Part shown: positions 3,082 through 5,999 of the stretch, piece after piece
Layout of the letters: each line of letters opens with the position of its first letter
Position numbering within the stretch: the first letter of the stretch is position 1
Source: Candidatus Eiseniibacteriota bacterium
GTDB taxonomy: Bacteria; Arandabacterota; Arandabacteria; JAGLYR01
Length of the DNA stretch: 14,474 nt
Direction of reading: 5' to 3'
Assembly (NCBI GenBank): GCA_023132135.1
Contig: JAGLYR010000089.1
Span: forward strand, 1-14,474
Translations under genes and position numbers: made by a program
The notes under the pieces: generated by a model
Seen by the model: only the letters and a program-made list of their open reading frames with translations
What the model was told of the DNA's origin: nothing
The model's database searches: none

Positions 3082-3089
3082 GCGAAATG

Positions 3090-3115
3090 GCGAGGGCGCT
3101 AAAGAGCGAGGGCGC
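3090..3115 (+). repeat. Direct repeat in the queD leader
   Basis: GCGAGGGCGC occurs at 3090-3099 and again at 3106-3115, separated by TAAAGA. The second copy runs directly into the AGGAGG ribosome binding site (3116-3121 region) of queD. It may be a simple purine-rich duplication; no known regulator or RNA motif is recognised. Confidence 0.5.
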
Positions 3116-3128
3116 GAGGAGGAACTGC

Positions 3129-3500
3129 ATGTATGAGATTTCCGTCAGTCTTCATTTTTCCGCCGCGCACCACCTGCCGGAATATGATGGTAACTGCGGT
3201 TCCATTCACGGTCATAACTGGAGTGTACGGGCGACGGCCGTGGCCGAGGAGCTGGACTCCGGGGGGCTGGCCATCGATTTCAGGGTGCTGAAGGCCTCAC
3301 TCGCCGAGGTCCTGGAGCCGCTGGATCACAGGAATCTGAATGAGGTTCCGCAGCTTCAGTCGATGGCCCCGACGGCGGAGAACATCAGCCGCTGGATCTT
3401 CGAGGAGCTGGCCGGGAAAATCAGCGGGCCCGGCGTCCGACTGGCGAAGGTCGCTGTAGGTGAGTCTCCGGGCTATGAAGCCATCTATCGAGAAGCGTAG
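3129..3500 (+). CDS. queD: 6-carboxy-5,6,7,8-tetrahydropterin synthase (QueD)
   Basis: QueD converts 7,8-dihydroneopterin triphosphate to 6-carboxytetrahydropterin, the second step of preQ0/queuosine synthesis, in the cytoplasm. The 123-residue product has the family signature: zinc-binding His14 in FSAAH, the catalytic Cys23 in C-x3-HGH with His27 and His29, the Asp66-His67 pair in LDHRNLNEV, the PTAENISRWI helix and Glu112 near the C-terminus. Length matches the family (about 120). The start at ATG 3129 is chosen because a strong AGGAGG lies about 8 bases upstream and homologous proteins begin just before the first strand. An upstream in-frame ATG at 3087 would add 14 residues not expected in the family. 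It is the first gene of a queD-queC-DUF366-queE operon and overlaps queC by 26 bases. Confidence 0.95.
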   Translation: MYEISVSLHFSAAHHLPEYDGNCGSIHGHNWSVRATAVAEELDSGGLAIDFRVLKASLAEVLEPLDHRNLNEVPQLQSMAPTAENISRWIFEELAGKISGPGVRLAKVAVGESPGYEAIYREA

Positions 3501-4194
3501 GAAATCGATCGCGCGCGCCGTGGTACTCCTTTCCGGGGGGCTGGATTCAACTGTGTCGCTGTCCCTGGCGACCCGGAGGGTCGTTGTGCTGGCGGCCGTG
3601 ACTTTCCGGTATGGCCAGCGCTCGGCCGAGGAGGAAGTGAAGGCTTCGCGCCGTGTTGCGCGCTCATTGGGCGTTTGCCATCGGGTAATTTCCCTGCCGT
3701 GGCTGGGGCGTCTGAACGCCGGAGGCCTGGCGGATCCGAAGACGCGCATTCCCAAAGTTAGCGTCTCGGACCTGAATGCCGGAAGAACGGCAGCTGCATC
3801 GCGAGCGGTCTGGGTTCCGAACCGAAACGGTCTCTTCATCAATATGGCAGCGTGTCTGGCCGAGGCATGGGGCGCCGGTATTGTCGTCGCGGGATTCAAC
3901 AGCGAGGAGGCCGAGAACTTCCCGGACAACGGTCTGGAATTCGTCCGGGACGCAAATCGGGTACTCAAGCGGTCTACCCTGAACGGGGTGCGGGTGGTAT
4001 CCTACGTCCAGAGAATGACCAAGGAGGAGATTGTGGAGGAGGGAGTCCGTGTGGGCGCGCCACTTGGCGCTGTCTACTCGTGTTACCTGGGTGGACCCGG
4101 GCACTGCGGCGAGTGCGAATCGTGCCGGCGACTGGCCCGGGCTTTCCGATTGGCCGGACAGTGGGATCTCATCCGGTCCAGGTTCAAGGGATGA
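3475..4194 (+). CDS. queC: 7-cyano-7-deazaguanine (preQ0) synthase QueC
   Basis: QueC uses ATP and ammonia to convert 7-carboxy-7-deazaguanine to the nitrile preQ0. The 239-residue product begins with the PP-loop ATP-pyrophosphatase motif SGGLDST (residues 20-26) and ends with the structural zinc site Cys203, Cys211, Cys214 and Cys217 (HCGECESC). Other family segments are visible, including VPNRNGLF and the GFNSEEAENFPDN stretch, the counterpart of the usual N-x-x-D-x-x-x-YPD motif. ATG 3475 is chosen because AGGTGAG (3458-3464) is placed 10 bases upstream; GTG 3460 would add five residues. The start lies inside queD, and the stop TGA shares ATGA with the start of the next gene, so translation is probably coupled along the operon. 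Confidence 0.95.
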   Translation: MKPSIEKRRKSIARAVVLLSGGLDSTVSLSLATRRVVVLAAVTFRYGQRSAEEEVKASRRVARSLGVCHRVISLPWLGRLNAGGLADPKTRIPKVSVSDLNAGRTAAASRAVWVPNRNGLFINMAACLAEAWGAGIVVAGFNSEEAENFPDNGLEFVRDANRVLKRSTLNGVRVVSYVQRMTKEEIVEEGVRVGAPLGAVYSCYLGGPGHCGECESCRRLARAFRLAGQWDLIRSRFKG

Positions 4195-4748
4195 AACGAC
4201 TTTTCCTGGATAAGGAGACGGTGTACACGGGGAGGGAACTGCGCTCTCACTGGGCCTATCGCAACCACGGTCTTCAGGGGGACAGCATCGTCGGGTTCGC
4301 CGGAAGTTGTGATGTTCCGACGGATGCTCTGGTGGACGAGGCGGATCGCAAAGAGGGCGCCTTCATCCGAAGCGAGCATATGCTGCATTTCCTTGTGGAG
4401 CATTTCGAGCGGGATCTGGAGAAAGCTATTCTCCGCCAGCTTTTCCTCGTGTGCCTCGCTCAGGAGGAGATCCATCGAACACTGGGGCGGGTCGTGCTCG
4501 AGCGCCGCGGGGACGATCTGTTCTGCGGCGAGAAGAAGCTGTCCGTCTCTGTCGCGACGCTCTCTCCGGTATCGTCCCTGATCCACCTGGGCCTTAACAT
4601 CTCGGCCGTGGGCGCGCCCGTGCGCGCCATTGGACTGGCGGACCTGGGTGTCGCGGCCCGTCCCCTGGGCGAAGCCGTGATGGAAGCGTACGCCGAGGCT
4701 GTCGAGCGAATCCCGTGGATGAAGAGCAAGGTCCGGGGTGTGGAGTGA
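4191..4748 (+). CDS. DUF366 family protein embedded in the preQ0 operon
   Basis: The 185-residue product resembles the uncharacterised DUF366 family (COG2029), recognised from memory by GDSIVGFAGSCDV near residues 30-45, a following VDEAD, MLHFLVEHFE and the C-terminal HLGLNIS-x-x-GAPVRAIGLADLGV. It has no signal peptide or transmembrane segment, so it is probably cytosolic. The family has, to my knowledge, no established biochemical role. ATG 4191 overlaps the queC stop in an ATGA, and its own TGA overlaps the queE start in a GTGA, so it is translationally locked between two enzymes of one pathway. That placement suggests a task in 7-deazaguanine synthesis or use, such as a pathway accessory protein; this is inference only. 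Conserved Asp, His and Glu residues would allow metal binding or catalysis, but no fold is recognised. Confidence 0.8.
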   Translation: MKRLFLDKETVYTGRELRSHWAYRNHGLQGDSIVGFAGSCDVPTDALVDEADRKEGAFIRSEHMLHFLVEHFERDLEKAILRQLFLVCLAQEEIHRTLGRVVLERRGDDLFCGEKKLSVSVATLSPVSSLIHLGLNISAVGAPVRAIGLADLGVAARPLGEAVMEAYAEAVERIPWMKSKVRGVE

Positions 4749-5524
4749 CCCCCAACGCGGAACCGGACATGGAGCAGGAAGCCGATGTGTGGGAGATCTA
4801 CTCCGCCATCCAGGGCGAAGGCCTCTGCGTCGGCGAACGGCACGTGTTCCTCCGGTTGGCGGGGTGCAATCTCGATTGCCGTTTCTGCGACACTCCTGCC
4901 CGCGGGGGCTCGCGGGCAGCGTGTGCCGTGGAGCGCAACCCGGGGGCCGGCGACTTCAGGCCGCGGTCAAATCCCGTAGGAGTGGGGGATGCGCTGGAGG
5001 CTGTGCTTCGCCTGTTGCGCGGTTCGCCGCCGGCTGTGCGGGTGTCTCTGACCGGTGGAGAACCGCTCATGGCGGTCGGTTTCGTCGAAGCCCTCGCCCG
5101 CGCCCTGAAGGAACGGGGAGTGGGCACGCATCTGGAAACCAACGGCACGCTTGCGGCCGAGATGAATCTGGTTCGCGATCTTGTCGAGTGGGTGGCAATG
5201 GACATGAAGCTGCCCTCATCCGCCGGCGTGGAACCCCTCTGGGAGAGGCATGATGCGTTCCTGAGAGCTGCTCGCGGAACCAGCGTGTTCGTGAAGATCG
5301 TGGTGACTCCCGGAACCCTGGAAAGTGATGTGGCAACTGCAGCCCGCGCCGTTGCGGGCGTCGATCGAACCATTCCGCTGGTTCTTCAGCCGGTGACGCC
5401 GGCGCGGGAGATTGCCGGTGCGCCCCGTCCGGAACAGATGAGGACCTTCGAGTCCATTGCGACGAAGTATCTTGAGAATGTTCGTGTGATCCCGCAGGTT
5501 CATCGCATTCTCGGGGAGAGATAG
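4745..5524 (+). CDS. queE: 7-carboxy-7-deazaguanine synthase (QueE), radical SAM enzyme
   Basis: QueE rearranges 6-carboxytetrahydropterin, the QueD product, to 7-carboxy-7-deazaguanine, the QueC substrate, using a [4Fe-4S] cluster and S-adenosylmethionine. The 259-residue product opens with VWEIYSAIQGEG, then the cluster motif Cys41-x3-Cys45-x2-Cys48 (CNLDCRFCDT) and the SAM-binding LTGGEPLM (about residues 102-109). THLETNGT and the later AMDMKLPSS fit the family. GTG 4745 is chosen because it forms a 4-base GTGA overlap with the DUF366 stop; ATG 4715 would overlap that gene by 34 bases, and ATG 4769 is a shorter alternative. An insertion between the Cys motif and the GGEP motif (about residues 52-80) is fairly long and rich in Arg and Gly. 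FolE, QueF, Tgt and QueA are not in this window. Confidence 0.93.
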   Translation: MTPNAEPDMEQEADVWEIYSAIQGEGLCVGERHVFLRLAGCNLDCRFCDTPARGGSRAACAVERNPGAGDFRPRSNPVGVGDALEAVLRLLRGSPPAVRVSLTGGEPLMAVGFVEALARALKERGVGTHLETNGTLAAEMNLVRDLVEWVAMDMKLPSSAGVEPLWERHDAFLRAARGTSVFVKIVVTPGTLESDVATAARAVAGVDRTIPLVLQPVTPAREIAGAPRPEQMRTFESIATKYLENVRVIPQVHRILGER

Positions 5525-5537
5525 CCCGGTCTGCATC

Positions 5538-5999
5538 ATGAACAGAACAGTGTGTCAATCGATCCTCGTCTTCATGCTTCTCCTTTTTGTTGTGCCGGAG
5601 GGATTCGCCGGGGTACTCTCTGACGGCGGGCGGCCCGGCGAGATCGCTCTTGCATTCCGCGAGGTCGTTGAGCGGGGGACATTGGGAGAGGGGCTGAAAT
5701 GCGGCAGTGACGCGGGAGTGGGGAGCGGGTGCGGTGCGGATGCGTGGCTCGCCCGGGACAAAGCCAGGCATGCGGGGTATTCTTTCATAGGGACGTTGGC
5801 TGCTGCCTCAGTTCTGGGTTCTTTGGGAATGGTGGAGGCCGACTGTGCGCCATGGGGGGCGGCATCTGTTTTCAGCCTGGGGTTGTTCAAGGAAGCCGCT
5901 ATGGACTGGGGAGAGATGGGATCGAGGGCCTCGTGGCGGGATGGGGTGGCCGATCTGGCGGGGGTGCTGGCCGCGTGGCTCATCACGCGGGGTGACTGA
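5538..5999 (+). CDS. Small exported protein resembling the YfiM/DUF2279 lipoprotein family
   Basis: The 153-residue product begins with a typical signal peptide (MNRT, then a hydrophobic core SILVFMLLLFVV, and a likely cut after about residue 24, GFA). The mature part contains ARDKARHAGYS (Asp74, Lys75, His78), a hydrophobic segment, FKEAAMDWGE (Lys118-Glu119, Asp123) and a second hydrophobic stretch after SWRDGVADLAG. The spaced DK-x2-H, KE-x3-D and D-x3-DL-x-G pattern is what I recall of YfiM/DUF2279-like envelope proteins. The assignment is by pattern and is moderate. No lipobox Cys follows the signal peptide, so it may be anchored by the hydrophobic segments. It starts 13 bases after queE, probably in the same transcript, though a functional link to queuosine is not implied. 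The ribosome binding site is weak. Confidence 0.65.
   Translation: MNRTVCQSILVFMLLLFVVPEGFAGVLSDGGRPGEIALAFREVVERGTLGEGLKCGSDAGVGSGCGADAWLARDKARHAGYSFIGTLAAASVLGSLGMVEADCAPWGAASVFSLGLFKEAAMDWGEMGSRASWRDGVADLAGVLAAWLITRGD

Follow-up and report, generated by a model that had tools for sequence, protein, structure and literature searches.

Sequence comparisons tie DUF366 to the preQ0 pathway, point to a biotin/lipoate-ligase fold, and couple it to a single clade of QueC, the FPDN type, even where the two genes are unlinked. To our knowledge this family, with a structure solved since 2007, has no assigned function, and the open-access literature yielded nothing relevant on DUF366, COG2029, PF04017 or 2DDZ, with no paper naming the family or PF04017. 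Our best explanation, possible rather than probable and offered tentatively, is that DUF366 belongs, as a dedicated fifth component, to a separate preQ0 module, where it would act as an adenylate-forming partner of the FPDN-type QueC in the conversion of CDG to preQ0. We infer this chemistry; the fold shared with the biotin ligase BPL does not in itself establish an activity. Two facts are the most informative: DUF366 goes with a single QueC clade, and a few genomes that have lost queD, queC and queE still retain it. The first of these gives a family without a role an enzyme hypothesis open to experiment, in a pathway central to the modification of tRNA and DNA. It further suggests that preQ0 can be made in a second way, by two proteins, and annotation that scores preQ0 synthesis from the presence of QueC may overlook a required partner.

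The preQ0 operon and the distribution of DUF366

The window, a stretch of 14,474 nucleotides from a Candidatus Eiseniibacteriota bacterium (contig JAGLYR010000089.1), carries queD, queC, the DUF366 gene and queE in the same orientation (Table 1). No promoter- or terminator-like signal was found between the four genes, and Rfam detected no riboswitch in the window. The first-pass annotation, made from the letters alone, had named all four products, and these identities hold. PF04017 is the sole Pfam match of the DUF366 protein and covers its full length (204.5 bits, the cut-off being 29.9; profile positions 1-184); no model matching it was found in PHROGs or NCBIfam. The Pfam and TIGR models likewise uphold queD, queC and queE, the product of the last being a radical SAM protein nearest to the QueE models with scores under their strict cut-offs. 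The queC reading frame is open from a GTG at 3460 and closes with a TGA at 4192-4194. Downstream of queE lies a 153-aa ORF (5538-5999) without a Pfam match.

Table 1. Positions of the operon genes and of the sites discussed in the text, numbered along the window.
Feature	Position	Strand	Support
queD, 6-carboxytetrahydropterin synthase	3087..3500	+	PF01242 E 1.7e-37; TIGR03367 QueD above cut-off
queC, FPDN-type	3478..4194	+	PF06508 E 1.1e-49; TIGR00364 above cut-off; placed in the FPDN clade
FPDN codons, QueC residues 148-151, where canonical QueC has YPDC	3919..3930	+	Sequence, alignment, column counts
DUF366 gene, 185 aa, ATG start, predicted biotin/lipoate-ligase fold	4191..4748	+	PF04017 E 1.3e-60; AlphaFold pLDDT 96.6; fold matches
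ATGA, DUF366 start overlapping queC stop	4191..4194	+	Sequence
Asp109 codon, invariant, aligned with BPL catalytic Asp (D104, P. horikoshii BPL)	4515..4517	+	88-sequence alignment; profile alignment to the BPL encoded in the window
Lys116 codon, invariant, aligned with BPL catalytic Lys (K111, P. horikoshii BPL)	4536..4538	+	88-sequence alignment; profile alignment
Asn136 codon, invariant, aligned with Asn of BPL GIGIN motif	4596..4598	+	88-sequence alignment; profile alignment
GTGA, shared by the DUF366 stop and one of the three candidate queE starts	4745..4748	+	Sequence
queE, radical SAM 7-carboxy-7-deazaguanine synthase, start uncertain	4745..5524	+	PF04055 E 1.3e-12; TIGR03365 E 1.1e-18, below cut-off

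The same annotation had DUF366 sharing an ATGA with queC and a GTGA with queE, and took these overlaps as an argument for stoichiometric expression with the enzymes. The ATGA is indeed common to both genes. The letters GTGA are also present, but queE could start in frame at any of three codons (GTG 4715, GTG 4745 and ATG 4769), so that the second overlap depends on an annotation choice. Moreover, the 4-bp overlap between queC and DUF366 is found in just 9 of 50 family pairs, with a spacing varying from about -26 to +48. It is thus weak evidence of stoichiometry, and that part of the argument was not borne out. The conserved gene order is stronger evidence of linkage than the overlap. Indeed, all five same-phylum relatives with spanning contigs have queD, queC, DUF366 and queE in this order, at 38-48% protein identity, and a sixth relative, whose contig begins inside DUF366, keeps DUF366-queE. 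Within this small phylum DUF366 is present in seven of eight genomes, the eighth being 73% complete.

A genome-wide scan with a DUF366-only query gave 80 loci from many phyla, 78 of them distinct, the loci inspected being non-archaeal. Sixty-three of the 78 have a que gene within 3 kb (QueE in 51, QueC in 45 and QueD in 36). This enrichment beside que genes, which extends to phages, agrees with what the first-pass annotation would lead one to expect. In Firmicutes, folE is usually added downstream of queE at the DUF366 loci. None was found on plasmid records. Co-occurrence tells the same story: among 299 Bacillota genomes, DUF366 is over the cut-off in 38, of which 36 also encode QueC (Fisher p 4e-20, which ignores shared ancestry; all p values given here are uncorrected for phylogeny, and many of the genomes are metagenome bins). 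Linkage and co-occurrence together make a strong sequence-based case that DUF366 belongs to the preQ0 pathway, as had been proposed. Among 14 well-known control genomes, 12 have QueC but only two, Methanocaldococcus jannaschii and Methanosarcina acetivorans, have DUF366, which is therefore not needed for canonical preQ0 synthesis.

DUF366 also occurs on ten viral contigs. In four of them it adjoins queC, two of these carrying in addition folE and a phosphoribosyltransferase gene, and one of the two a bimodular QueF. The latter two clusters (L100:4900-9800 and L102:5600-10700, with the bimodular QueF in L102) comprise queD, the phosphoribosyltransferase gene, queE, queC, DUF366 and folE, and may serve to make a 7-deazaguanine nucleotide before DNA replication. 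Four related viral loci (L098, L099, L103 and L104) share a conserved arrangement in which DUF366 sits among small uncharacterised genes. Three of the four carry queE and an AAA ATPase gene as well, and the sequence examined showed no queC. In a further record, that of Microcystis phage MaAM05 (MW495066.1, L014), DUF366 is found amid secDF, glyS, fabI, fliM and other housekeeping genes. This record looks like bacterial DNA mislabelled as phage and was left out of the phage evidence.

The QueC clade paired with DUF366

The canonical QueC of E. coli and B. subtilis, which converts CDG to ADG and then to preQ0, is marked by the motifs YxQxHxxE and YPDC(R). The window QueC shares with it SGGxDS, VPNRN, the essential Tyr of SCY and the zinc cysteines, but differs in belonging to a separate, DUF366-associated clade. 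Like the other DUF366-linked QueC proteins, it has Ala or Ser for the His of YxQxHxxE and FPDN, with EE just before, for YPDC. In E. coli QueC the Y131A substitution is inactive and Y131F is partly active (PMC13329287).

Wherever the motif of a DUF366-adjacent QueC is covered, it is of this N type (52 of 52 rows of loci across phyla), and the same is true of all 30 Bacillota in which queC adjoins DUF366. When locus L021 is included, the N type is found in 31 of 35 DUF366-positive Bacillota versus none of 51 DUF366-negative ones (p 2e-19, phylogeny uncorrected), the DUF366-negative genomes with a typed QueC being all Bacillota. In a tree of 104 sequences built with the motif columns masked, the N-type proteins still form a clean clade with a support of 1.0. 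Furthermore, queC genes that are not linked to DUF366 remain of the N type in 24 of 25 genomes and in four of four WOR-3 genomes, i.e., in 28 of 29. This coupling beyond gene neighbourhood is, among the sequence data, the strongest evidence that DUF366 and the FPDN-type QueC work together. Hitch-hiking in a common cassette, considered as the sole cause of the link with QueC type, is weakened by the unlinked FPDN-type genes, leaving ancient co-transfer as an explanation of this kind.

The pairing has its exceptions, which count against the partnership: five genomes with DUF366 have a YPDC-type QueC, and an FPDC form is found on three phage contigs. Among 80 viral QueC loci, the sole one of the PDN type also carries DUF366, and the halovirus HCTV-1 has a YPDC QueC with no DUF366 near its queC.

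Fold of DUF366 and its possible part in the QueC step

The only PDB relative of the window protein found by sequence is the solved DUF366 member 2DDZ of Pyrococcus horikoshii (E 6e-33). An AlphaFold model built from 88 sequences, those of the window and the loci (pLDDT 96.6), superposes closely on it (Z 28.2, rmsd 1.6 A, 182 residues). Thus what is added here to a family without assigned function is a pathway, a QueC-clade partner and a predicted superfamily. After 2DDZ, the best structural matches are the biotin and lipoate ligases BPL and LplA (Foldseek E about 1e-7), with Z 13.7 and an rmsd of 3.2 A over 158 residues for BPL, and Z 12-14 over 150-168 aligned residues for BPL, LplA and LipB. 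Asp109, Lys116 and Asn136 are found without exception in the 88 sequences. The distance of seven residues between the first two reproduces the spacing of the catalytic Asp and Lys of BPL, and all three fall on BPL motif residues when the family profile is aligned with the BPL of the window itself, albeit with weak significance (P 0.03).

On the other hand, the substrate loops of these enzymes, GRGRxGR (biotin and adenylate, BPL) and RRxSGGGxVxHD (lipoate, LplA), are absent from both the window protein and the 88-sequence consensus. LipB uses a Cys-Lys dyad, and the DUF366 sequence alignment has no invariant cysteine; no linkage of DUF366 to biotin or lipoate genes was seen. By the model and the absent loops, DUF366 is a member of the biotin/lipoate-ligase fold, yet it is predicted not to be a biotin or lipoate ligase. 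The first-pass annotation had raised the possibilities of a metal-handling role, for which no evidence was found, and of a pterin site. The latter, T-fold idea was abandoned as the strong fold matches were to biotin and lipoate ligases only. Substrate channelling, which the same annotation put forward, is conceivable.

The conversion of CDG to preQ0 requires two ATP-dependent activations, the first turning the carboxylate of CDG into the amide ADG and the second turning the amide into the nitrile preQ0, and canonical QueC performs both. We propose that the FPDN-type QueC has lost residues on the substrate side, namely the His of YxQxHxxE and the Cys and Arg of YPDCR, with Phe in place of Tyr, and that DUF366, whose adenylate-forming fold keeps the catalytic Asp and Lys, would carry out one of the two activations. 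The carboxylate half would better fit the usual chemistry of this fold. The amide-to-nitrile half would fit slightly better with the presence of DUF366 in genomes that have no QueC.

Indeed, DUF366 is intact at four loci (L035, L051, L158 and L159) where queD, queC and queE are remnants or gone. In two Syntrophomonadaceae (L035:900-2030 and L051:7400-8680), queC and queE are reduced to remnants or lost around an intact DUF366 gene, which is under purifying selection between the two (dN/dS 0.12). One other genome (G285, L158) has DUF366 beside folE and no queC, and another (G344, L159) keeps it with no queC and no neighbouring que genes. This retention may reflect salvage of ADG, genes lost only recently, gaps in the assemblies, or a distinct role further downstream, and it counts against the strict form of the QueC-partner proposal. 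It also favours the idea that the place of DUF366 is after preQ0 synthesis, or in the salvage of 7-deazaguanines, and that it travels with the que genes while remaining outside the QueC step. Such retention is seen in at least three lineages; DUF366 moreover stays beside queE where a YPDC-type QueC has replaced the FPDN type, and one phage encodes it together with QueF and a phosphoribosyltransferase. However, a downstream role does not account for the link between QueC clade and the presence of DUF366 in genomes where the two genes lie apart, and a common role would be hard to name as archaea, phages and bacteria differ in their downstream steps. We consider it unlikely, although it survives better than the alternatives that follow.

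The exclusive pairing with one QueC clade could also be that of a non-catalytic scaffold or channel, which would bind CDG or its adenylate and stabilise the FPDN-type QueC; ligase-fold proteins such as BirA can bind adenylates tightly. Nevertheless, the Asp109/Lys116/Asn136 pattern of an active ligase, kept throughout the family alignment, and the retention of DUF366 without QueC both speak against a scaffold, which seems to us less likely still. Finally, DUF366 might couple CDG through its carboxylate to a lysine or the N terminus of a protein, in the way a biotin ligase couples biotin. Its fold would suit this reaction, and passages of two reports describe QueC-family proteins of anti-phage systems that conjugate deazaguanine to proteins (PMC13279940, PMC13329287), but no acceptor protein is apparent in the DUF366 neighbourhoods and we hold this activity to be improbable.

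HGD-D and the reduction of preQ0

QueA requires preQ1-tRNA, and preQ1 is made from preQ0 by QueF. Yet 27 of 45 DUF366 genomes are without QueF, though 41 of the 45 have QueA, and among QueC-positive Bacillota QueF is found in 4 of 36 DUF366-positive versus 35 of 51 DUF366-negative genomes (p 7e-8, phylogeny uncorrected). The window's own genome (G000, 96% complete) has QueC, TGT and QueA, and neither QueF nor HGD-D was detected in it.

HGD-D (PF06050) is encoded at L009:8204-9211 and 17 other loci (e.g., L030:9493-10488 and L057:5710-6741), often directly 3' of queE. The protein has three invariant cysteines, and its fold is nearest to those of the double-cubane protein, 2-hydroxyacyl-CoA dehydratase and benzoyl-CoA reductase. 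HGD-D and QueF exclude each other. Of the 45 DUF366 genomes, 20 have HGD-D, 18 have QueF and none has both; in the 299 Bacillota, the figures are 55, 75 and 0. Among the 87 QueC-positive Bacillota, 47 have HGD-D only, 39 QueF only, one neither and none both (p 5e-24, phylogeny uncorrected). This distribution singles out HGD-D as a strong candidate for an iron-sulphur reductase of the preQ0 nitrile, non-orthologous to QueF and acting in its place. The open-access literature held nothing relevant linking QueF with hydroxyglutaryl-CoA dehydratase.

That DUF366 itself replaces QueF, as the anti-correlation might suggest, is very improbable: the HGD-D/QueF distribution explains the QueF gap far better, DUF366-negative genomes included, QueF and DUF366 occur together in 18 of 45 genomes and one phage, and methanogenic archaea, which make no preQ1, carry DUF366. 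The window DUF366 protein has no match to PF14489 (QueF), PF04017 being its only one.

The two proposals can be joined into an alternative route to preQ1, in which the FPDN-type QueC and DUF366 would split the conversion of CDG to preQ0 and, in many organisms, HGD-D would reduce the preQ0 nitrile in place of QueF. We regard this full route as conceivable though on the doubtful side. Many anaerobes possess QueD, QueE, QueC and QueA but no QueF, a gap that a substitute would close; HGD-D, if it is a preQ0 reductase, would bring nitrile reduction to an iron-sulphur family where it was not expected.

Six QueF-bearing, DUF366-negative Bacillota (L134-L139) have yet another type of QueC, with the motif DDAAGxAYPDC.
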